Shown: positions 3,324-54,497 of the stretch, piece by piece
Layout: each line of letters opens with the position of its first letter
How positions within the stretch are numbered: position 1 is the first letter of the stretch
Assembly (NCBI RefSeq): GCF_900186995.1
Contig: NZ_LT906463.1
Location: 372,001-436,000, forward strand
DNA length: 64,000 nucleotides
Reading direction: 5' to 3'
Origin: Haemophilus pittmaniae
GTDB taxonomy: Bacteria; Pseudomonadota; Gammaproteobacteria; Enterobacterales; Pasteurellaceae
Position numbers and translations under genes: made by a program
The notes under the pieces: generated by a model
What the model was told of the DNA's origin: nothing
The model's input: the letters and a program-made list of their open reading frames with translations, nothing else
Database searches by the model: none

Positions 3324-3344
3324 TTTAGTTCTCAAATCAATGTC

Positions 3345-3404
3345 AATAAAATCAATAACTTAGATGCCGTTTTGAAGAAAACTCTAAGAATCGATAGGGC
3401 GTTT
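3345..3404 (+). repeat. 60-bp dispersed repeat, copy 1
   Basis: A 60-bp unit that begins AATAAAATCAAT and ends AGGGCGTTT. It lies in the convergent gap between tusA and the lipoprotein gene that ends at 3417. It is the most diverged of the plus-oriented copies in the middle but matches the others at both ends and in exact length. See copies at 25021, 26142, 30307, 37869, 51297 and 53588. Confidence 0.8.
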
Positions 3405-8546: not shown

Positions 8547-8559
8547 AAAGCCACTCTTT

Positions 8560-8654
8560 GGAGGGGCGTCGTTTCCGGTGAAGCGGCAGGACTTCAAATC
8601 CTGTTAAGGACGCCAGCGTTCTTGGGTGGGTTCAACTCCCATTCCCCTCCGCCA
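8560..8654 (+). tRNA. selC: tRNA-Sec (UCA anticodon), with encoded CCA
   Basis: A 95-nt tRNA, the same length as E. coli selC. The acceptor stem GGAGGGG pairs with CCCCTCC before the encoded GCCA. The anticodon loop is ACTTCAAAT with anticodon TCA reading UGA, and there is the long extra arm of Sec tRNAs between about 8603 and 8625. It lies head-to-head with selA, which charges it. Confidence 0.97.
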
Positions 8655-25020: not shown

Positions 25021-25080
25021 AAACGCCCCGATGATTTTAAAAGTTTTTCTTAAAAACAAACCTAACCCATTGATTTTATT
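25021..25080 (-). repeat. 60-bp dispersed repeat, copy 4
   Basis: On the minus strand this begins AATAAAATCAATGGGTTAGG and ends GGGGCGTTT. It lies directly upstream of the ketosynthase-like gene, between it and the hldD terminator. Confidence 0.85.
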
Positions 25081-25092
25081 AGACATGTAATA

Positions 25093-25126
25093 AAAAAGCC
25101 GCAATTTATCAAAAACGCGGCTTTTT
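25093..25126 (-). terminator. Terminator of hldD
   Basis: The stem AAAAAGCCGC / GCGGCTTTTT has an AT-rich loop and lies 21 bp after the hldD stop (minus strand). The symmetrical A and T runs could make it work both ways. Confidence 0.8.
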
Positions 25127-26141: not shown

Positions 26142-26201
26142 AAACGCCCCTACCATTTCAAACTTTCTGCCCTAAATAACAGCTAACCCATTGATTTTAT
26201 T
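26142..26201 (-). repeat. 60-bp dispersed repeat, copy 5
   Basis: On the minus strand this begins AATAAAATCAATGGGTTAGC and ends TAGGGGCGTTT. It lies between the cysZ stop (26236) and the hldD start (26073). Confidence 0.85.
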
Positions 26202-26235
26202 AAGGTTGCCAATAAAAATATTTATCCTATTGATT

Positions 26236-27078
26236 TTACTGCACTATTTGATTGTCTTTAGGGGCAACAGCCGTACCGCGAGGCGTACCAACATCGCGTC
26301 CGCCACCTTGGCCGCTATGCGGCATTGGTTCGAAACGCCAATGGCTCCGGTAATTTTCCACCCACATGACGGTTGCGGCACATACCGCTACCGGCATCAC
26401 TAAAAAGTTCACAAAAGGCACCATTGCACAACCGCTCACCAATGCACCGAATGTCAGATTTTGTGTACGTTGTTGGCCAAGCGCACTTTTCATCACCGCA
26501 AAGGACACTTTGTGGTTATCGAACGGATAATCGCAATATTGAATGGCCATCATCCAACAGGTGAATAAAAACGCCAACACCGGCACGATAGTTTGTCCAA
26601 CCAGAGGAATAAATCCTAATAAAAACAATGCAATAATTTTTGGTAAACTGTACCAAAGTTTTTGCCACTCACGCTTTAACATACGCGGCACATCTTTCAT
26701 CACATCCCACAGATTATCATCGTTGATCTCTTCGCCGGTCAGCATTTTTTCCACTTTCTCCGCCAATAGCCCATTAAACGGCGCAGCAATAAAATTGGAT
26801 AAGGTATTAAACACAAAATAAAACAACAGCAACACCATGCCGATAGAACAAATCAGCAAAATGACACTTAAAAAGCTGAGCCAATCAGGCACAAAGCTCA
26901 TCATGAAGTCAATCCAACCGGAAACCTGGTTGATGAATAGCCAAAACAAACTGCTGAGCAGCAGGATGTTCAACAAAATCGGCATAATCACAAAACGGCG
27001 CAAGCCTTTTTGACAGATCAGATGCCAACCGGTAACAAAATATTGAAAGGCATTTTTCGCCTCGTTGAGATTAAACAT
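26236..27078 (-). CDS. cysZ: CysZ, sulfate transporter family protein
   Basis: An integral membrane protein of 280 residues with hydrophobic stretches near 30-50, 65-92, 140-175 and 205-235, and the conserved [21 protein letters not shown] segment (start of the family core). CysZ mediates sulfate entry for cysteine synthesis. It is divergent from zipA, as in Haemophilus influenzae. The C-terminus (about 255-280) is Gly/Pro-rich and less conserved. Confidence 0.92.
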
Positions 27079-28227: not shown

Positions 28228-30287
<2,060 letters not shown>

Positions 30288-30306
30288 ATGTTTTTAAGCC
30301 AATCAT

Positions 30307-30366
30307 AATAAAATCAATGACTTAGAGTGTATTTTTAGAAAAATTCCAATTTCCTAGGGGGCGTTT
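30307..30366 (+). repeat. 60-bp dispersed repeat, copy 2
   Basis: Begins AATAAAATCAATGACTTAGA and ends CTAGGGGGCGTTT. It lies in the convergent gap between ligA and tyrP, just before the shared terminator. Confidence 0.85.
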
Positions 30367-35924: not shown

Positions 35925-37808
35925 ATGGAACAAAATCAACAATCTACAGCCGAACAATATTCGGAACAAATTGAACAGCTAATGGAATTGGGTCGCACGC
36001 AAGGTTATCTCACCTTTGCCGAAATCAATGATTTGCTGCCTGAAGATGTGATCGATCCCGAATATTACGACAAACTTTTGCAAACTCTGCAAAATGATGC
36101 AGGCATTCCGGTTTTAGATGAAGCACCGGAAAGCGATGAAATGATGCTCAATGACACCATTCCCGATGAAGATGCAGTAGAGGAAGCAACTCAAATTCTC
36201 TCCAACGTAGAATCGGAAATTGGCCGAACAACTGACCCTGTGCGTATGTATATGCGCGAAATGGGTACCGTTGATTTGCTTACCCGTGAAGATGAAATTA
36301 GCATCGCCAAACGCATTGAAGAGGGGATTGACGAAGTACAAGGAGCCATTGCTGCTTATCCAGAGGCCTTAAATCCATTATTGGCACATTATGCTGATGT
36401 TGAAGAAGGCAATTATCGTTTGGCTGACTTAATCACCGGCTTTGTGGATCCTAATATCATCGAAGAAGAAAATGCCGATGTTCAGTATGCTCACAGCGAT
36501 GATGATGAGAATGCAGAAACTATTAATGCTGAATCCGATGAGGAAGAAGATGAAAGCGATGAGAATTCCTCTTCCGATGACAGCGAATCGGATAACAGCA
36601 TTGACCCTGAATTAGCCCGTGAGAAATTCTATGAGTTAAAAGCTCAGCACAGCAAAACGCTACAAGCCATTGAAAAACATGGCCGTCATGGCAAACGAGC
36701 TAAAGAACAAATTGCGCTTTTAGGTGAAATTTTTAAACAATTCCGCTTAGTCCCAAAACAATTTGATCAGTTAGTTTTTGCCATGAAAAATATGATCAAA
36801 CAGGTTCGAGCGGAAGAACGCCAATTACAAAAAGTTTTGGTTGATATCGCCGGAATGCCGAAAGACGAATTTGAAAGCCTCGTATTAAGCCACAGCAGCA
36901 ATCCTACTTGGTTGGAAAAAGCGCTCAAATCCACAAAATCTTGGGCCAAACGTTTACCAAAATACGAAGAACGGTTACGTCTCTCCATTGATAATTTAGC
37001 GCTCTTGGAACAACGCAGCAATTTGAGCGTATTAGAAATTCGTGAAATCTGCGATGCCGTAGCACGTGGCGAACAAAAAGCCCGTCGCGCGAAAAAAGAA
37101 ATGGTTGAGGCCAACTTACGTTTAGTGATTTCCATTGCGAAAAAATATACCAATCGCGGCCTACAATTCTTAGATTTGATTCAAGAAGGTAATATCGGCT
37201 TGATGAAAGCGGTGGATAAATTTGAATATCGTCGCGGTTATAAATTCTCTACCTATGCGACCTGGTGGATCCGGCAGGCTATTACTCGTTCAATCGCCGA
37301 CCAAGCACGCACAATTCGGATTCCGGTACATATGATTGAGACCATTAATAAGCTAAACCGTATTTCTCGCCAAATGTTGCAAGAAATGGGACGTGAGGCA
37401 ACTCCGGAAGAACTGGCTGAAAGAATGGGAATGCCGGAAGATAAAATCCGTAAAGTGCTAAAAATCGCTAAAGAACCGATTTCTATGGAAACTCCAATTG
37501 GTGACGACGATGATTCACACTTAGGGGATTTCATCGAAGATAGTACGCTTGAGTTACCGCTCGATAGCGCAACTGCACAGAGCCTAAAAGTTGCAACTCA
37601 TGAAGTGTTAGAAGGATTAACACCACGTGAAGCGAAGGTGCTTAGAATGCGTTTCGGTATCGACATGAATACGGATCACACATTAGAAGAAGTTGGTAAA
37701 CAATTTGATGTAACCCGTGAGCGGATTCGCCAAATTGAAGCGAAAGCCCTACGTAAATTACGTCATCCAAGCCGTTCAGAAACATTGCGCAGTTTCTTAG
37801 ATGAATAA
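35925..37808 (+). CDS. rpoD: RpoD, RNA polymerase sigma-70
   Basis: The primary sigma factor, 627 residues. It has region 1.1 at the N-terminus and region 1.2 ([21 protein letters not shown]). A long acidic Asp/Glu/Ser stretch (about 180-225) is followed by regions 2.1-2.4 ([20 protein letters not shown], then [10 protein letters not shown]), 3 and 4.2 ([20 protein letters not shown]). A likely internal promoter (TAGAAT, about 35863-35868) lies in the 68-bp gap after dnaG. Confidence 0.97.
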
Positions 37809-37868: not shown

Positions 37869-37928
37869 GAACGCCCCTACGAAATCCGGAGTTTTACCAA
37901 AAATAACACCTAAGTCATTGATTTTATT
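37869..37928 (-). repeat. 60-bp dispersed repeat, copy 6
   Basis: On the minus strand this begins AATAAAATCAATGACTTAGG and ends TAGGGGCGTTC (last base differs). It lies exactly between the rpoD terminator and the S10-operon terminator. Confidence 0.85.
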
Positions 37929-37938
37929 AGCACTAATA

Positions 37939-37972
37939 AAAAAGCCAACGGCACAGGCCATTGGCTTTTATT
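37939..37972 (-). terminator. Terminator of the S10 operon
   Basis: AAAAGCCAA / TTGGCTTTT stem with a GC-containing loop, followed on the minus strand by TTATTAG. It lies 14 bp beyond the rpsQ stop. Confidence 0.85.
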
Positions 37973-43389: not shown

Positions 43390-43746
43390 TTATCCCCAAG
43401 GTTTAGCATCAGGTCTACTATATTTTTTACGCCATTGTACACATACAGGTCTATTCCACATTGTTCTTTCTTCGCAAATCGGTCCACCTTCTAAATACCA
43501 ACCTTTTTTTTCTAAACAAAGATTAACTTCAGGATCATCACTTTCTCCTATCACATAATCCATTCCACAATCGTCCATATCTTTCTCTCTTCTATCAAGA
43601 TATTTTTCCAATACTTTAGGATCTGAGTCTGGAAATAACGTATTCTCATTATGCAACTGCCAATGGTCATGCGGTGGTGCTGGTTTAAACCCGCCAAAAG
43701 AACAACCAAACAATGTTAGGGAAAATAGTACGAACAAAAATCTCAT
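43390..43746 (-). CDS. Small lipoprotein coupled to the exoprotein gene; candidate immunity protein
   Basis: A lipoprotein of 118 residues: signal peptide with lipobox LFGC (Cys15), then a short acidic and aromatic domain with four further cysteines (DDCGMDY, NLCLEKKGWY, PICEER, PVCVQW), which may form two disulfide bonds. I do not recognise a named family with certainty. Its ATG overlaps the exoprotein stop (ATGA), so it is made with the exoprotein. A periplasm-facing lipoprotein encoded next to a secreted putative hydrolase is the pattern of immunity proteins for lipase effectors; that role is inference. Confidence 0.65.
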   Translation of the reverse strand: MRFLFVLFSLTLFGCSFGGFKPAPPHDHWQLHNENTLFPDSDPKVLEKYLDRREKDMDDCGMDYVIGESDDPEVNLCLEKKGWYLEGGPICEERTMWNRPVCVQWRKKYSRPDAKPWG

Positions 43747-46700
43747 TTGTTGCCCTCCTTACTGATATTATTTAATTCAAAAATAGTCGTTTCGTTACCC
43801 ATTTTAAGATCTCCTTCTTTTCTATATCCATCTGTTACACATTGCCTTTGTCCTAAACCATGACAATTATGAACTGAAGAAACGTCATCGCTAAACATAT
43901 CTAACTTAACTTTTAGCCAACCATTATTCTTATGATTTTCAATCGTTGTTGCTGGATTTCCACCCAATAACACTGGCATACTACCCACAGGATCTTCTTT
44001 GTGATTTTCAATTCGAATTGCCCCATCCGAAGTTGTCCTTTCTTTACCGGTTTGCAATTTACTTAGGTAGCTATCTGCTCTCGTAACATCCGCTGCAGGA
44101 CCAACCATTTTAATCGTTGTACCTGAAAGTAACCTTTTCGCTTGGTTATCTTCCGTATTTAATACTTTTAATGCATTACTGATTGTTAACGTTCCACGAC
44201 TATGAGAACCAAGGTATAAACCATCTTTACCATATTGATTCATAATATTAATTGCTTGCAAACTTGAATTATCCATACCCAAGAATTTTCCAAAAGAACT
44301 TTCAAACATTTTTTCATAACCGGCAACCAATAGTTCTGAAAAACTATTATTCGCTTTAGGATGATGAACAAAATAAACATCTTTATAGATCCGTTTATTG
44401 ATATCTCCCGTTTTTTCATCTTTGCTAGCAATATAGTTTTGTACTGCAAATTTTGCTGCAGCATTGCGATCATTAAAGATGCCATTAAATGCAACTACAT
44501 ATTTACTTTCTGTTTTTCCTGTCTTTGGATCCGTATAAGTTACTTTTTGTAATTGATTACGTTCTTGATCGGACAGCTCATGTAACAAATAAATATTGCG
44601 ACCTTTATCCAATTGTTGTTTAAGATATTCTTTTCTATTTACTCCCTTAGAATCTGCTTCTTCATTTATTTTCGCCATAATTTCTGGATCCTTTACAGGT
44701 TTTCCATTTTTACCTATTTTATGCGTAAACATCCGATGTTCAGCAATAAACATTGTTCGATAAGCCTCATCCATAGAGCTACCAATATTCTTCGCAAAAT
44801 TCTGAATCGTTACTACATCCTGCTCAACTGTTTTCATCATTCCTGCATAATCTACTTTTTCAAGTTTATTTGCCTGTTGCTCTGTTGATTTCTTGATTGC
44901 TTCAATATTCTTTTTGCCTTCTGCACTACCAATATTAAAATTACCGTCACTAATTACTGCATTAGTTATGCTTTGGTAGCTTTCTTTTTGGCTACTGTTG
45001 CTAGCTAAATTTGCCAAACCAATTTTGGCTGCAGCATACAAATCCGTACTATGGACATCATCTTTGCCTAAACCAAATTTTACTGGTAATTGATTAGCTT
45101 TATTCGGATTAGCCTTATCAAAGGTTTCTCCCTCTCTTCCTTTACGATACATTTCATTAAGTTTTTTGTCTTCTTCTGAAGTTTGATCACGAGCAACCGA
45201 AAATCCTCCCATTAATCCTATAGCTGAAGATTTCGCATTAGAATAATTCTGAATATTGGCATACTCAAAATCTTGTGCGGTTATTTGATTCTTCTCTTTT
45301 ACCGCACTTGAAAGAATAGCCCCTCCGACAGAGGATACTTTATTCCTCACCTCCACATCATAACCATCATCCCCAGCAAAAATACCGGTTTGTTCGTTTA
45401 CAGAGGCATAATCTGAATGAATTTTTGAGCGGTTGTAACTACCGCCAACAGCAACGCCATACCCGACCGTCACACTACCGCTTACATTCATTTGTTTACC
45501 ATCATAAGTTGCCTTATCCTGCAGGCTTTCAATATTAAGATTTTCGGCCGAAACTTCGACACGTTTACCTATAACTTGAGCTCCAATTAAATTCGCATCA
45601 CCTCCTGCCTGAATTACAGTTTTACTATTGCTATCCCCGACATGGCTGGCCACATATGAAACCTCATCGCCATTGCCATATCCCTTGCCATAGTTGTCAC
45701 CAACGGTTAAGCCGGCTGAAACACCTTTACCAATAGCAATCGCTACACCGACGTTAAAACCACTAGACTTATTGGTGCTACGCTCCATATGGGTTTGCTC
45801 AGCCGCTTTAATATTCACCTGATTATCAGCAATCAAGGTTGTTCCCTGCTTACCCGATACATCGGAACCAATAATGTCAATATTGGCATCTTTCCCCACA
45901 GCAGTTGCGACAATATTCACCTTACCATCGGCATTCACTTGTGATTTTGCTGCAGTTTTACCTTCAACATGAGTTTTAGATTCACTTTGCTGTTGGCCAT
46001 ATGTAATCGAAATCTTAATACCTGAACTATCGCCCCCCGATTGACCCGCTCCTGCGCCCATACCGGCAAGCCCGGCTACAGCGCGACCTGCTTGAACTGA
46101 GCTATATGCGGTATTCGCCACCGCCATTGCATTCACTCGGGAACTTTTGCTTTTTCCCATAGTTTGAGCTGATTTAACTGCCCCCTGCACAGCATTAATG
46201 GCATCCAATATTGGTGAAGTCAGCGCAATAGTTAAACCTTTCTGTTCAAAAGTCTGTTTCATATTGCTTTCGTATTTATCATCTGCGGCTTGAATCTTGG
46301 CATTCTTAGCCAAAATATTCACATCACCTTTTATTGCACTTAATGCACTGGCTGTTTGGGTATAATTGTTATCTGCAATAATTGTGGTATTGCCATGTAA
46401 ACTGCCTACTTGGCTACCACTAGCAGAAAGTCTGGTTTGATCAACTTCCAATGCTTGTTTCTGCTGACCGATAGTAAAACCAATCCCAGCTCCCATGAGA
46501 CCTGATTTTTGCTTCATCTCAATATCCTGAGAATAAACACGATTTTCGGCCTCTTTAATCTCAATGTTCTTACCCTTAGCCCATAATCCATTTTCAGCGA
46601 CTACATTGGAACCTTGCACGCTCACGTTACCATGATTAGATTGCAAAATGACTTTATCCGCATCGAATTCCGATGCTTGAGCCAGATCATAGCGATGTTC

Positions 46701-49700
46701 ATGCTTACGAGTTGTCGTAGTTTTATTCACCAGATTCTTAGCTACACTTTTACTGCCCGCAGATAAATCCTCGTAAGAACGGCTTTCTCGAATCAAAATA
46801 TCACCGTCTGATAGCACCCTCATCGTGCCATTACCGGTTATCGACACTCCTTTCATTTCCACGGACCGTCGCCCTTCCAACAGAGCATTAGCCTCGATAT
46901 TTAATCGATTACCGATCTCTTGTTTTCGGTGCAACTTGTAGTAGTTATCCGCATCATTTACATAGTTTTGTTTGCTTTCCGTCTCTAAGGTCGCGAAATT
47001 AAGCCGATTTCCCGCACGAATATCCGCACCTCCTTGTACATTCACTAGCGCACCTTTCAACGTAATATCTTCGTTCGCATACAAGGCTAGTGAACCTCTT
47101 GCATGAGTATCTCCAACATTAATCATTGCCGTACGATCAATGGATTTTTGATAGTCATGCTCAGTATTTGCGGTCTCCGTCAATGTCGATAGTACGCGAA
47201 TATTTTGTCCCTGCCCGACCACATGCGTACCGCGCCATTCTCCACCGAGATTCTGCAAACGTTGTTTGGCCAGTAAATACATCTGATGTCCTTGCAGTAC
47301 ACCACCATTATTTTCAATATTATTGGCATGCAGATAATTCAGATGACGCCCGGTAATAACCCCACTATTACTAACATTATCTAGATCTGCCACTATTTCA
47401 TTGGCTGAAATCACCGCACCGGAACCATCCACATCTGTATTACGCCCCACAATATAAACTTGCGGTACTAGCACTTGAGTCGTACTACCGTCCTTGAGAA
47501 TCACTTCCCGTTTAACCAACCACACCATGTCGGAAGTCAGTTCCTTCATTTGTGCTGCAGTTAATGCCACTCCAGGGATCAAATTTAACTTATCTGCATA
47601 TTGCATACCATTATCCATCAGTGCTTTATATTGCTCATAATCGGATAAATAACCGTCTAGAAAACGACGACCTGTCAATTGATTAATTTGCTCATTGATT
47701 AAACGCTGTTCATAAAAGCCATCCCCTAAACGTTTCAGTATATTCTTAGGATCATTACGCAAGGCTTTCAACATATAGTCTGAACTTAACCAACGAGATT
47801 TTTGGGTAAATCGCGGATCTGTTTCAATTAAAACACTACCACCTTGCGGATTCACCTTATAAAGGCTAGCCTGTGGTATTGTGATCTGCGGTAAATGGGT
47901 TTTGATATTGTTGACCTTGCCGGAATAAAGCGCATCAGTATCACTTTCAGCCAATAGCTTCGCGCCCTGCAATGTAGGCTGAATAGCCGTTGCATGAGCA
48001 TCTACTGTTGTACCGGTATTTGCCACAGACTCACCAATGGTATTCAGCACCAAACCAAATCGCACTGTTTCCGGTGGTTGCTGAGCGAGTGGTGAGCGTA
48101 CTTTTTCATCTAAAAAATCACGGCGATGCTTCAGTCTTTTCCGCCCCCCACCTGGTTTACGTCGAACCTGTTCGTATCGATAAAAGGAACCGATATCCTT
48201 AGTTATTAACTGCGCCTCCAAATCTTCGTTAATCAGTTTTCCTGAACCAGCGGTAATTTCCTTGCCTGACTTTTGAATATCTTGTTGATTAAAAGTAAAG
48301 CGTCCCCCGACAAGTAAGTGGCTATATTGGTTATGAACATGATCGCTTGTTAAATTTAAGTCACCACCTATCAACAATTTTGCCGGAGCCTCATCATATT
48401 TTTCCGGCACATAGCGAATCCGAGTAAATTTCTTACGCTGCCAATAATCACCGGTACTCCCCCGCACATCCGGTTTTGTCGGGTCGAAGAAATCAAATAC
48501 CGCAGTATTGCGACGCTGACCGTTATTGTGATGCATGCGCCCATCTACACCATCGCGAAACCATTCTGAAACCGTTTTAGAATGACGATCTTCAAAACCA
48601 TAAAGGTCAAAATCTTCTCTCTCCTCCCGAATACGTACCTTCACATGAATATCTTTATTATTAATCTTTCCAACTTTTGCTACCGTTGGGCCCAGTAATT
48701 CCATGGTCGCACTTTCATTATTAATCACACTGGCTTTGCCCTCTGCCTGATGCAGTTCATTTAAATGACGACCAATAACCGTTTTTCCTAGCGATAACAC
48801 CAGTGACTTATCACGATTAAGTAATTCATTAAAAGCAAGATCCAAACGTTCCCGTGCTGCAATAGTTGCTCCGTCAAGATTCTCAATACGCGCTGCTTCT
48901 ACAGCTAAATGATTGCCATAAATTCGGCCTGAACCTAAATTTCGGACTTGCTCCCCTTGCAACTGATTCACCACACCATCAATTAAACCGAGATTAATAA
49001 TACTTTTACCCTGCAGTTCCGTTTGCATTGCGGAAATTTCTGCATTTTCATTATTGTGTAACGACTGCCCACGGATTTGGGCCCGATTCCCAACCGCTAA
49101 TTGCGTGTTGTTTACAAAATCGCCCTCGGTCGTAAAAGTCAGATTATTCCCCACAGCAAAGGCATGATTTAGGGTAAAGCTGTCTTTTAAAACAACATCT
49201 AAATCTCCACGAGTCTTAATTGCGCCTTCATCAATTAATCCCTTTGCCTGTAATTGCATGCCTGTAGCCGATTCAATTTTACCCAACGCATTATTTACCA
49301 TTAAGGTCAATGCCGGATTGGTAATATCAATATGACCATTAGAGAGAATTTCGCCTTGCTGGTTATCAAGTCTCTGAGCCACATTTAAAGCAGCAGATTG
49401 AGCCACATAAATACCTCCGGCCTGATTATTGAGATGGGCAGTATGCAACGCCAAAGTGCCTGCCTGAATGCCTAAATGAGGCGTTTCGCCTGTAGCTTTA
49501 GTCTGCGTATTATCCAGCTCATCCACTTGCAATTGAGCCTGTGTGGCAAAAATCAATCCATGCTTATTGGTTAAACTATTCGCCGAGATATCTGCTGTGT
49601 GTGCAATGACTTGTCCTTGTTGGTTGTGTAGTTTATCCGTCTGAGCAGAAAGCACACCCTGACCAGCCCAAAGCAATCCCTGATCATTTTGCAACAATGG

Positions 49701-51485
49701 TACGCGAAGCGAGAATGCACCATGACTCAACATAGACCCCTGACGATTATCCAAGCCATCCGCTAAATTCAGTGACCATTGTGCTGAACCGCGCTGAAGC
49801 CAACTTCCTTGCTGGTTGTTAAGCTGTTTAGTCTCAACCGTAAAATGCCCGGCGTTTAAATTGGCTTTTTCTGTGTTAATTTGTTGAGGCGCTTTTAAGC
49901 TGGTATCACCTAAACTGAAAATACTCGCCCGCGTTAAATTCAGCGGAGAGACTTGCGATTCAAGATGATTGCTATAACTACTTGAATGACTTGCCGATAA
50001 ATCGGTATTCTTAGCGATACCAAGAAAATGCCCGGAGACCAAATGGCGTCCCTGAGAAAGAAGCGTATCTTCTGCGGCCAAGGTTAGCTGAGCACCTTGT
50101 ACCGATTGGCTATCTAAGTGGCGTTTTTCACCCTCTGCAGAGCTCTCCATGGTGATTCCTGCAGCAATCAGCGCATTTTTATCTGCCGTAATTTGTTTTG
50201 CCCGATAAGCCACATTGCCCTTAGCAACGGTTTCACCACTTTGCTCAATATTATGCTTGGCATTCAAGGCAACCGCATTTTGCTGAGAAATGATTGAGCC
50301 GGTATGGGCTATATTGGCTGCCTGTACATGGATCTTGCCCTGTCTGCTTGCTAACTTACCTCGGTTTTCCAGATTCTTTTCAGCGTTGGCATCAATACCG
50401 CTATGCGCACTGATAGTGCCTTCATTCACAATCCGCCCTTGGCTATCAATCTTCACATCGCCCGCTGAGGCACCGATATGGCCGGCGTTGCGTACGCCAA
50501 GGCCTTGGCCGTTATCCACTAAATGAATTTTCTCGGCATACATTCCGCCCAATTGGCTAACATCAACGCTGTAGGAGGATTGGTTTTCTGGCGTTGTCGG
50601 ATTGTTGGCTGCCGGTTGTTCTCCCACATACACCACCGAATCATTGGTGCGGTCAACTTTGTTTTTGCCGGTGGTGACTTTAATCCCTTTGTTCGACCAA
50701 ACACCGCCCTTGATTTCCGCTTTCTCACTGATGATGTCGGTGTAATCCGCTTGGCGGTTATCCATGCCTTTTTCACCCACGCTGACTTTACCGCCCTGTA
50801 CGCGATAGCCCTTCAGGTTGCCGTTTTCCACTTCAGCCTTGCCGGTAGTCAAGGTGGCTCGGCCGGCATTAATTACCCCACAGCCATCACAATGAATTCC
50901 ATTTGGGTTAGCAATCACGACATCAGCTTTTTTCCCTGCCACTTCCACATAGCCTTTTAAGCGGCTTGGATTAGCCGAGTTCACCTCGTTAAGAATGACT
51001 TTGGCTTCGCCACGCGCAAGATTCGGGTTGCCCTGCACCCAGCCGGCCATTTGGGTTTGTGCCGCCTTGCGGGCGTTGTTGAGGATGGCGCCCTGCTCGG
51101 CCACATCAAATTGTGTATATTGGTTGCGTGAGACCCCGCCTGCACTTGGCGTTTGGATATTGACCTGTGGCAGGCCGTTTGCGGTTTTCAGTACGGTTGG
51201 TTGTTGATTACCCGGCGCCGATTTATCCGCTCGAATCGCCATTTCTTGCGCCTGCGCTTGCGGCATCCAGACAAAGCCCAAGGACAACATCAATGCAAAC
51301 GCCACCCTGGTAAGCGGAGTTTTTCCGAAATTAACACCTAACCCATTGATTTTATTAGAGTTGCTTGAAAAATGCGTTTCTACGCAATCCACCGCCGCTT
51401 TGCCGGCGCTTTTGGCCAGTTCGGACACCACCACCAGTTGATTTAACACGCGGCTGAAGATGACTTTGTATTGACGATTGTTCAT
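43743..51485 (-). CDS. Filamentous-haemagglutinin-like two-partner secretion exoprotein with C-terminal hydrolase-like domain
   Basis: An exoprotein (TpsA) of 2580 residues. It has an extended signal peptide (ESPR type, from KVIFSRVLNQLVVVSELAK at residue 7, likely cleavage after AQA near 79). The TPS secretion domain (about 90-330) contains VIANPNGIHCDGCG. A very long beta-helix repeat region follows, with haemagglutinin repeats to about 2150. The C-terminal ~250 residues include FNGIFNDRNAAA, the LGSHSRGT elbow (Ser2429), EDPVG (Asp2498) and VHNCHG (His2539), a possible Ser-Asp-His triad. No VENN motif was seen. Residues 44-63 are encoded by a copy of the 60-bp repeat. Secreted by the FhaC-type protein upstream. 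Confidence 0.88.
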   Translation of the reverse strand: MNNRQYKVIFSRVLNQLVVVSELAKSAGKAAVDCVETHFSSNSNKINGLGVNFGKTPLTRVAFALMLSLGFVWMPQAQAQEMAIRADKSAPGNQQPTVLKTANGLPQVNIQTPSAGGVSRNQYTQFDVAEQGAILNNARKAAQTQMAGWVQGNPNLARGEAKVILNEVNSANPSRLKGYVEVAGKKADVVIANPNGIHCDGCGVINAGRATLTTGKAEVENGNLKGYRVQGGKVSVGEKGMDNRQADYTDIISEKAEIKGGVWSNKGIKVTTGKNKVDRTNDSVVYVGEQPAANNPTTPENQSSYSVDVSQLGGMYAEKIHLVDNGQGLGVRNAGHIGASAGDVKIDSQGRIVNEGTISAHSGIDANAEKNLENRGKLASRQGKIHVQAANIAHTGSIISQQNAVALNAKHNIEQSGETVAKGNVAYRAKQITADKNALIAAGITMESSAEGEKRHLDSQSVQGAQLTLAAEDTLLSQGRHLVSGHFLGIAKNTDLSASHSSSYSNHLESQVSPLNLTRASIFSLGDTSLKAPQQINTEKANLNAGHFTVETKQLNNQQGSWLQRGSAQWSLNLADGLDNRQGSMLSHGAFSLRVPLLQNDQGLLWAGQGVLSAQTDKLHNQQGQVIAHTADISANSLTNKHGLIFATQAQLQVDELDNTQTKATGETPHLGIQAGTLALHTAHLNNQAGGIYVAQSAALNVAQRLDNQQGEILSNGHIDITNPALTLMVNNALGKIESATGMQLQAKGLIDEGAIKTRGDLDVVLKDSFTLNHAFAVGNNLTFTTEGDFVNNTQLAVGNRAQIRGQSLHNNENAEISAMQTELQGKSIINLGLIDGVVNQLQGEQVRNLGSGRIYGNHLAVEAARIENLDGATIAARERLDLAFNELLNRDKSLVLSLGKTVIGRHLNELHQAEGKASVINNESATMELLGPTVAKVGKINNKDIHVKVRIREEREDFDLYGFEDRHSKTVSEWFRDGVDGRMHHNNGQRRNTAVFDFFDPTKPDVRGSTGDYWQRKKFTRIRYVPEKYDEAPAKLLIGGDLNLTSDHVHNQYSHLLVGGRFTFNQQDIQKSGKEITAGSGKLINEDLEAQLITKDIGSFYRYEQVRRKPGGGRKRLKHRRDFLDEKVRSPLAQQPPETVRFGLVLNTIGESVANTGTTVDAHATAIQPTLQGAKLLAESDTDALYSGKVNNIKTHLPQITIPQASLYKVNPQGGSVLIETDPRFTQKSRWLSSDYMLKALRNDPKNILKRLGDGFYEQRLINEQINQLTGRRFLDGYLSDYEQYKALMDNGMQYADKLNLIPGVALTAAQMKELTSDMVWLVKREVILKDGSTTQVLVPQVYIVGRNTDVDGSGAVISANEIVADLDNVSNSGVITGRHLNYLHANNIENNGGVLQGHQMYLLAKQRLQNLGGEWRGTHVVGQGQNIRVLSTLTETANTEHDYQKSIDRTAMINVGDTHARGSLALYANEDITLKGALVNVQGGADIRAGNRLNFATLETESKQNYVNDADNYYKLHRKQEIGNRLNIEANALLEGRRSVEMKGVSITGNGTMRVLSDGDILIRESRSYEDLSAGSKSVAKNLVNKTTTTRKHEHRYDLAQASEFDADKVILQSNHGNVSVQGSNVVAENGLWAKGKNIEIKEAENRVYSQDIEMKQKSGLMGAGIGFTIGQQKQALEVDQTRLSASGSQVGSLHGNTTIIADNNYTQTASALSAIKGDVNILAKNAKIQAADDKYESNMKQTFEQKGLTIALTSPILDAINAVQGAVKSAQTMGKSKSSRVNAMAVANTAYSSVQAGRAVAGLAGMGAGAGQSGGDSSGIKISITYGQQQSESKTHVEGKTAAKSQVNADGKVNIVATAVGKDANIDIIGSDVSGKQGTTLIADNQVNIKAAEQTHMERSTNKSSGFNVGVAIAIGKGVSAGLTVGDNYGKGYGNGDEVSYVASHVGDSNSKTVIQAGGDANLIGAQVIGKRVEVSAENLNIESLQDKATYDGKQMNVSGSVTVGYGVAVGGSYNRSKIHSDYASVNEQTGIFAGDDGYDVEVRNKVSSVGGAILSSAVKEKNQITAQDFEYANIQNYSNAKSSAIGLMGGFSVARDQTSEEDKKLNEMYRKGREGETFDKANPNKANQLPVKFGLGKDDVHSTDLYAAAKIGLANLASNSSQKESYQSITNAVISDGNFNIGSAEGKKNIEAIKKSTEQQANKLEKVDYAGMMKTVEQDVVTIQNFAKNIGSSMDEAYRTMFIAEHRMFTHKIGKNGKPVKDPEIMAKINEEADSKGVNRKEYLKQQLDKGRNIYLLHELSDQERNQLQKVTYTDPKTGKTESKYVVAFNGIFNDRNAAAKFAVQNYIASKDEKTGDINKRIYKDVYFVHHPKANNSFSELLVAGYEKMFESSFGKFLGMDNSSLQAINIMNQYGKDGLYLGSHSRGTLTISNALKVLNTEDNQAKRLLSGTTIKMVGPAADVTRADSYLSKLQTGKERTTSDGAIRIENHKEDPVGSMPVLLGGNPATTIENHKNNGWLKVKLDMFSDDVSSVHNCHGLGQRQCVTDGYRKEGDLKMGNETTIFELNNISKEGNK
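51297..51356 (-). repeat. 60-bp dispersed repeat, copy 7, inside the exoprotein coding sequence
   Basis: On the minus strand this begins AATAAAATCAATGGGTTAGG and ends GGTGGCGTTT. It is 60 bp with no gap relative to the other copies, and reads in frame as 20 codons (residues 44-63, NKINGLGV to RVAF) in the signal peptide region. Confidence 0.8.
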
Positions 51486-53534: not shown

Positions 53535-53587
53535 CTGTGCAATATCAAAATAACTATCTAACAAACATGATTTTTTAAACTATCATC

Positions 53588-53647
53588 AATAAAATCAATT
53601 AGTTATATCGTTTTTTAAGAAAAACTCTGATTTTGGAGGGGGCGTTT
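53588..53647 (+). repeat. 60-bp dispersed repeat, copy 3
   Basis: Begins AATAAAATCAATTAGTTATA and ends GAGGGGGCGTTT. Its last two bases overlap the yibQ stop codon, and it lies between yibQ and its terminator, so it is transcribed. Confidence 0.85.
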
Positions 53648-54497
53648 ATTGAGGGACTCCGCGCAACAAGGGGATCGGTGCAAAAGGCGCAACGGAGGTC
53701 GGTGCGGGAATATCGTTAAAAATCAAAATAAACGGTTTGGCTGGAATAACTTTTTCGTTACGCCACAAAACGCCCATGCCCACCAATTGAATATCCTCGG
53801 GCAGATTTTTTAGACCGCTTTGCAAAACCGCAATGGTATTCTTACGCGGGTGACCGATTGCGATAGCCGTACCATGTTTGCGGGCATAACTCAGCGCAGC
53901 TTGAAACTGGCGCTGCACATCCGCCAACTCATTACTGTCATCTAAAAAGATATGTCGATCAAGCACTCGCACACCCTGTTCCTTGGCGATTTTACCGGCT
54001 ACCGATTTACCGATAGTGCGACTATCTAAAAAGAATAACTGCTCCCGGCGTAAGGCACGCATCAAAGCTGCCATCAGTTGCGGATCGGCTGTTGCCGCAC
54101 TGCCCATATGGTTGTTCATACCGATGGCATGAGAAATAATCTCTTTTGCATCGCTGACCCGTTGTGCCACTTGAGATTCACTTAAGCCTAAGGTAAGCCC
54201 ACCGGCTTCAATTTTAATATTACTAACCGGCTGCATTGGCATATGAATCAAAATATCGCGTTTTTGTGCATGGGCCTGTTGATTGCGGGCCTTGGCATAA
54301 GGCGCAGCCGGAATAATTGCCACCGACACTTCACGCGGCATCGCCAACACGGCAGCATCTTCCGTGGGATGATAACCCACGTCATCAATCACAATGGCTA
54401 ATTTAGAGGGCGCGGCAAAGGCGCTCAAGCTACCCAATAAACCAATCACCAATAAGCTAATTTGCTTGTGCGGGAAAAGACGCATTATTTTAACCAT
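53646..54497 (-). CDS. YibQ-like divergent polysaccharide deacetylase
   Basis: A periplasmic protein of 283 residues with a signal peptide (about 5-28, ending AFA-APS). Its deacetylase-like fold has AIVIDDVGYHPTEDAAVLA (about 34-52), NHMGSAAT (about 127-134) and a final AIAIGHPRKNTI block. The family is usually found beside envC and is linked to envelope maintenance; its substrate is not known. It overlaps envC by 13 bp. An alternative start 12 bp downstream (MRLFPHK) is possible. Confidence 0.85.
   Translation of the reverse strand: MVKIMRLFPHKQISLLVIGLLGSLSAFAAPSKLAIVIDDVGYHPTEDAAVLAMPREVSVAIIPAAPYAKARNQQAHAQKRDILIHMPMQPVSNIKIEAGGLTLGLSESQVAQRVSDAKEIISHAIGMNNHMGSAATADPQLMAALMRALRREQLFFLDSRTIGKSVAGKIAKEQGVRVLDRHIFLDDSNELADVQRQFQAALSYARKHGTAIAIGHPRKNTIAVLQSGLKNLPEDIQLVGMGVLWRNEKVIPAKPFILIFNDIPAPTSVAPFAPIPLLRGVPQ

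Follow-up and report, generated by a model that had tools for sequence, protein, structure and literature searches.

A 64,000-nucleotide stretch of the Haemophilus pittmaniae chromosome, hereafter the window (42.6% GC), carries seven short segments, including one at positions 25021-25080, that a first-pass annotation described as a dispersed repeat of exactly 60 bp with fixed ends and a free middle. What is this sequence, how far does it extend through the genome and into related genomes, and what keeps its copies alike? H. pittmaniae (42.4% GC, median genome size 2.20 Mb) is placed in one genus with H. parainfluenzae in the available portion of PMC13076348. The annotation knew of no described element of this kind in Pasteurellaceae, and we found none in the open-access titles and abstract openings that were searched.

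Extent and anatomy of the repeat

The seven segments proved to be gap-free and to lie at the positions and on the strands originally assigned to them. They share AATAAAATCAAT at one end, and the opposite end is GGGCGTTT or close to it (the right end is GGGCGTTC at 37869-37928 and GTGGCGTTT at 51297-51356). The pattern AATAAAATCAATNNNTTAG, allowed up to three mismatches, matched the window 12 times, compared with a mean of 2.37 and a maximum of 6 in shuffled sequence. A whole-genome count, which the annotation had proposed as a check, was performed using a spaced pattern with 22 fixed bases and at most two mismatches; it yielded 336 matches (148 + 188) in the single 2,181,355-bp contig of the genome and none for the reversed pattern. 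The 12 window matches against a shuffled maximum of 6, together with the 336 genome matches against a control of 0, exclude chance. Spacing within the element is fixed genome-wide (74 copies in 464 kb), with one copy seemingly carrying a 1-bp indel (G000:2052736). Neither outcome that the annotation said would refute the family, a frequency no higher than chance or a loss of the constant spacing, was observed.

The annotation was thus right that the length of the unit is fixed, but the length itself is greater than 60 bp. In an alignment of 38 genome copies, conservation runs from position -16 to position +60 and sequence outside these limits is near-random, giving the unit sharp edges. Because conservation before AATAAAATCAAT takes in a T-tract and a CA...CT motif and reaches back 16 bp, the repeat unit is 76 bp, consisting of 16 upstream bases and the reported 60. 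In this alignment the invariance of bases 1-12 and 16-17 arises partly by construction, whereas that of the upstream tract and the right end does not.

Redrawn to 76 bp, the first copy in the window occupies 3329..3404 on the plus strand (earlier given as 3345-3404). Two minus-strand copies lie at 25021..25096 (earlier 25021-25080), where the IHF consensus WATCAANNNNTTR is found at 25063-25075, and at 26142..26217 (earlier 26142-26201), which is accompanied by a degenerate left-core relic on the same strand (26222..26240), 39 bp from the intact copy. The plus-strand copy at 30291..30366 (earlier 30307-30366) directly follows the 3' end of a gene for an NAD-dependent DNA ligase (28284-30287), and the minus-strand copy at 37869..37944 (earlier 37869-37928) is 3' of a sigma-70 type gene (35925-37808). 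A further minus-strand copy, at 51297..51372 (earlier 51297-51356), is 3' of a ShlB/FhaC-type transporter gene and overlaps the start of a mechanically called ORF (43743-51485), whose true start may be later than the mechanical one. Finally, the plus-strand copy at 53572..53647 (earlier 53588-53647) ends at the stop codon of an opposite-strand ORF (53646-54497).

The majority consensus of 116 copies is TTTTTAAATCAACTCT AATAAAATCAAT(G/A)(A/G)(C/G)TTA(G/C)...TTTT-N4-AAAACTC...(A/T tract)...GGGGCGTTT, with an information content of 86 bits over 76 positions; the copies were gathered by the left-module pattern, and the invariance of the left module is partly a product of that procedure. The middle, which the annotation had called free, is in fact constrained: positions 16-18, 26-29 and 34-37 are conserved in at least 90% of copies, and positions 43-47 form an A/T tract on either strand, being TTT in 69 copies, AAA in 38 and neither in 9 of the 116. 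A tract that may be either TTT or AAA suits DNA shape better than RNA pairing. Selection on an RNA structure, which the annotation had also raised, found no support from folding, as RNAalifold returned 0 consensus pairs for the 38 copies and 9 of 10 copies folded singly fell within 2 sd of their shuffles (the other had a z of -2.44). There was no Rfam match to the copies at the gathering threshold, and the only match in the window was to tRNA-Sec, at a gene located at 8559-8654. With no consensus fold and no Rfam match at the copies, an RNA element was rejected.

The left module, a putative IHF site, fits the IHF consensus, given as WATCAANNNNTTR in the available part of PMC3682984. Element positions 6-18 match this consensus in 116 of 116 copies, partly by construction, and the variable triplet at 13-15 falls within its NNNN spacer. 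When sites in 464 kb were instead found by the right module alone, the IHF consensus was in place at 71 of 72, and the 72nd is a frame-shifted match of the indel-bearing copy. The consensus by itself is not rare in this genome, with 153 matches in 464 kb, 74 of which are elements, compared with 16 for the reversed control. The element contains no uptake signal sequence (USS), as the annotation had stated.

Copy number, range and placement

Ten congeners gave 0-2 weak matches each, and the same spaced pattern gave 1-2 matches in each of 9 of 40 relatives and none in the others. A sequence-only covariance model, run over 140 Pasteurellaceae genomes with stricter filters than the spaced pattern, found matches at E <= 1e-4 in eight. 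Besides the H. pittmaniae genome itself, these comprise a strong match outside the genus (E 1.6e-17) and six weak matches in other genera (23.6-26.9 bits). In the H. pittmaniae genome this search scored only 150 candidates, all 150 of which matched, so 336 is the better count.

An exact pattern had one match in the GTDB species collection, from which H. pittmaniae itself may be left out, and this match is in Haemophilus sputorum CCUG 13788, the species that also accounts for the strong covariance-model match. Its copy is flanked by hisD and hisC, and the surrounding segment, 93-94% identical to the H. pittmaniae genome (92-95% in a separate comparison), has probably moved between the two lineages. 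The hisD-hisC interval of the H. pittmaniae genome contains no element; it holds a 391-aa gene (L138:9106-10281) with no Pfam match at E 1e-5. Copies can thus come or go, and the hisD-hisC copy is not universal.

Our view within the species comprises one H. pittmaniae genome and one IMG/VR contig that share one copy. Thirteen IMG/VR contigs carry the left pattern, of which 12 lack the right end. The remaining contig (L088) has phage genes and is probably from another strain of the same species: it shares 243 bp with G000:24169-24411 (1 mismatch, 2 gaps), and its copy is identical over the 60 bp and differs in the upstream T-tract. A blastn search with one copy returned only partial matches, at E >= 0.05, among plasmids (8 records) and phages (13 records). 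A phage or plasmid origin was rejected on the basis of these partial matches and the missing right end in 12 of the 13 contigs.

Genes were taken as mechanical ORFs rather than annotations, and although these cover 90% of the sequence, an overlap of more than 40 nt with a chosen ORF is seen for just 3 of 115 copies. An unbiased subset of 73 copies comprises 45 between tandem, 22 between convergent and 6 between divergent genes, compared with 94 tandem, 33 convergent and 49 divergent among intergenic gaps of at least 80 bp, a set that includes gaps lengthened by the element. Tandem copies in this subset have no preferred orientation to transcription (23 ++ vs 22 --). A right-hand gene points at 77 copies; for 17 of these the distance to its stop codon is at most 3 bases, on the side where the two overlap. 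Some copies precede or follow terminator-like hairpins.

The interval 0-1.2 Mb contains 176 copies. Outside a 71-kb copy-free gap, 20-kb bins hold a mean of 3.09 copies with a variance of 1.08 (lower-tail p 1.6e-6), as judged against a Poisson expectation rather than a map of intergenic sites and with three prophage bins dropped; with those bins kept, the mean is 2.93 and the variance 1.49. The signal of even spacing weakens with bin size (p 0.006 at 40 kb and 0.066 at 60 kb). A matrix scan of 60 kb from the gap (G000:500001-560000, L140-L142) found no copy. Nine of ten proteins scanned from the gap hit phage families that have a named function (Mu-type transposase, portal, tail, baseplate and terminase); the tenth hit a phage family with a DUF2326 domain and unknown function. 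This interval is probably two element-free prophages. Tape-measure and tail-sheath genes are also present within it.

GC skew changes sign at about 0.50-0.59 Mb and at 1.62-1.71 Mb. When copies are assigned to replication strands on this basis, the spacer is GGG in 28 of 72 on the leading strand and in 7 of 104 on the lagging strand (p 2e-7); the two arms taken separately give p 5e-6 (left) and p 0.01 (right), with the caveat that the switch point that best sorts GGG lies at 820-830 kb (86%) and not at the skew-based 560 kb (28 of 35). GC skew by strand is +0.24 vs -0.01 in the variable columns and -0.01 vs -0.06 in the flanks, a much weaker strand effect in the flanks than in the element. The simplest reading of these strand-specific spacer variants would be long residence under strand-biased mutation.

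Insertion and intactness of the copies

We compared 196 orthologous gaps between H. pittmaniae and one congener (G004, 1.2 of 2.09 Mb). The 18 gaps with one element are longer in H. pittmaniae by a median of 82.5 bp, whereas the 178 gaps without an element have a median difference of 0. The element is therefore an insertion in most of the 18 gaps, which bears out the suggestion in the annotation that it spread as a unit. Length differences fall between 77 and 98 bp in 11 of the 18 element gaps, with extremes of -458 and +164 bp, and 3 of the 178 element-free gaps likewise differ by 60-110 bp.

With a scoring matrix trained on 110 collected copies, 116 copies score 42.7-106.3, none score 10-40, and the reversed control in 464 kb gives 0; the score is 41.9 for an additional copy, at G000:1112699. 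Across the 33 columns that are conserved in at least 90% of copies, 68 copies have no deviation, 33 have one, 12 have two and 3 have more. Scanning 464 kb for half-elements gave one weak left-only match and one frame-shifted right match. Relaxing the scan gave 21 left-core matches that belong to no full copy; 17 of them are in the 464-kb sample, where the reversed control gave 4. Four of the 21 (26222-26240 in the window, and G000:333866, 1189635 and 1287145) are 39-68 bp from an intact copy and resemble decayed duplicates, as if only redundant copies decay. This near-total intactness, together with intergenic placement, suggests that something keeps each copy working.

The variable columns of the 116 copies are nearly independent draws (mean pairwise identity 0.492, and 0.492 after shuffling), so the copies are not the product of a fresh burst. 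Similar pairs are in excess, with 72 pairs at or above 70% compared with 11 when columns are shuffled, and two pairs of copies are alike at 86% and 84% of variable columns.

Candidate roles of the element

These data support an inserted IHF-type DNA element that is kept intact copy by copy. Our leading reading, in which we place a little less than even confidence, is that it is a 76-bp IHF-type nucleoprotein site with about 340 insertions, kept by genome-wide selection or drive. These insertions would have occurred in the lineage of this one species, mostly downstream of genes, and the copies would now be held intact, locus by locus, through a genome-wide selective or drive force. Judging from the motifs, IHF would bind the left 35 bp (T-tract to TTA) and bend the DNA back, and the bend would allow the right module (TTTT-N4-AAAAC, the either-strand A/T tract and GGGGCGTTT) to meet the left module. 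A putative second factor would read the right module. The resulting complex may act as a dispersed, orientation-neutral chromosomal mark rather than a local gene regulator, and nucleoid architecture would be its most conservative role.

We regard it as rather unlikely that the repeat is instead a selfish or formerly mobile IHF-dependent mini-element that was moved by a recombinase and has no selected function in the cell. Insertion as a unit with sharp ends fits such an origin, as do the two pairs of alike copies and the excess of similar pairs, and IHF is a common cofactor of recombination. However, the element has neither terminal inverted repeats, as end-to-end complementarity is below that of shuffled copies, nor a target duplication, as none was found at 115 copies. 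Among 6,800 combinations of boundary and length in the latter search, the highest z was 4.1; this case comprised 4 of the 115 copies, lay away from the element edges and is as expected by chance. A MITE and target duplication were both rejected, and the annotation's statement that this is not an ordinary MITE holds. Truncated or decayed copies are also few, and the replication-strand-specific variants argue for long residence.

Nor does the one transposase of the relevant type point to the element as its substrate. The single PF01797 match in the genome, a Y1/RAYT-like transposase at L139 (G000:1700561-1700905), sits between restriction-modification-like genes and is flanked by its own REPs (GTAGGGTGGGCTTCAGCCCACC), and the element is absent from this 3.3-kb locus. 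REP/BIME sequences with RAYT transposases are likewise high-copy, intergenic and downstream of genes, and their RIB/RIP forms contain IHF sites. The element differs from them in having no consensus palindrome, and a RAYT/REP origin was rejected because the Y1 transposase is flanked by another REP and the element has 0 consensus pairs. Correia repeats, or NEMIS (CREE), of Neisseria are likewise short high-copy repeats with an IHF site, but as described in the available part of PMC2229807 they have a 24-bp terminal inverted repeat, TA ends and a target duplication, whereas the H. pittmaniae element lacks the inverted repeat and the duplication. Caulobacter CIR repeats are, in the same portion of PMC2229807, likewise intergenic and free of terminal inverted repeats; they contain two long RNA stem-loops and a GANTC motif, while the H. 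pittmaniae element has no conserved fold.

A second alternative, which we consider unlikely, is that the element is a replacement uptake (self-recognition) sequence: the uptake preference would have changed, the old USS would have decayed, and the element would be kept by molecular drive, that is, by biased uptake and recombination. The USS core AAGTGCGGT occurs 205 times in the H. pittmaniae genome (reversed control 36), compared with 1,276-1,481 times in all ten congeners. Another uptake motif was rejected: the highest-ranking words in the 9- and 10-mer enrichment lists come from the element or from residual USS. The Apl-type USS shows no excess (10 in 464 kb, against 6.2 expected), and a few unrelated 8-mers are mildly enriched, such as TGTGACAT (22 vs 5.4). 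Elements are also located where the congener G004 has USS, which are present in 12 of the 18 element gaps and 30 of the 178 others (Fisher p 1.6e-5). When this association was stratified by gap length among non-divergent gaps, the odds ratio was 6.3 (p 0.009), and among the 31 non-divergent gaps with a congener USS, H. pittmaniae carries the element in 12, retains a USS in 5 and shows neither of them in 14. Like the USS of Pasteurellaceae, the element has a GC core with A/T tracts, is orientation-neutral and is poor in new DNA, with no copy in the 60 kb scanned from the largely prophage 71-kb gap. Furthermore, comEC/rec2 is matched within an 830-aa open frame.

Several observations weigh against replacement of the uptake sequence. 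The insertion origin of the element speaks against calling it a USS, as known USS arise via point mutation in the available portions of PMC1626085 and PMC7811141. USS are about 30 bp long and number more than 1,200 per congener, whereas the element is 76 bp long, intergenic and present in about 336 copies, a low number for an uptake sequence. USS distribution is called uneven in the part of PMC7811141 available to us, so evenness of spacing does not in itself mark a USS. An IHF consensus is unexpected in a sequence that is read outside the cell, the loss of USS may merely reflect weakened competence, and USS and element may just both favour 3' intergenic space. In addition, two genomes of an otherwise USS-rich genus (G146 and G147, genus g56) are also USS-poor (357 and 334), and neither gave an element match in the covariance-model search of 140 Pasteurellaceae genomes. 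Because USS loss and element gain in one species of eleven constitute one evolutionary event, they cannot carry the uptake claim alone.

A related proposal, in which we have correspondingly little confidence and which we view as quite unlikely, is a new self-DNA mark, in which an inserted, IHF-containing 76-bp sequence replaced USS as the preferred signal for uptake or exchange. As part of the same proposal, the mark would have spread by insertion rather than point mutation and would be kept intact by molecular drive. If true, this would be, to our knowledge, the first known uptake sequence originating as a copied element. The data do not tell nucleoid architecture and biased uptake apart.

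It is very improbable that the element serves its flanking genes as a local signal in transcription, whether terminator, promoter or RNA element, because the placement downstream of genes and the hairpins beside some copies, which would suit this, are offset by orientation that is neutral to transcription and by the lack of a conserved fold or of an Rfam match at the gathering threshold. We give just as little credence to the idea that a tyrosine integrase targets the element much as it would an attachment site. The left module is similar to the IHF-type sites that accompany phage attachment sites, and in an IMG/VR prophage contig (L079:49-150) AATAAAATCAATGACTTA, an IHF-type sequence next to a likely attachment site, starts 9 positions past the end of a tRNA-Arg(ccg) gene, but a tRNA was found in 1 of the 6 contigs (of 13) given to a tRNA search, the right-module pattern is found in 1 IMG/VR contig, and the likeness may be that of the IHF consensus alone.

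About 336 copies that share 86 bits, few of them decayed, in one species and lacking from its sampled congeners, represent much more constraint than the same number of ordinary binding sites would require, and the replication-strand-specific spacer variants are a further regularity. Because the same species has lost most of its USS, a change of uptake specificity is directly testable by uptake competition. The element provides a natural setting in which to test how a repeat scattered over the chromosome turns into one of its maintained features.
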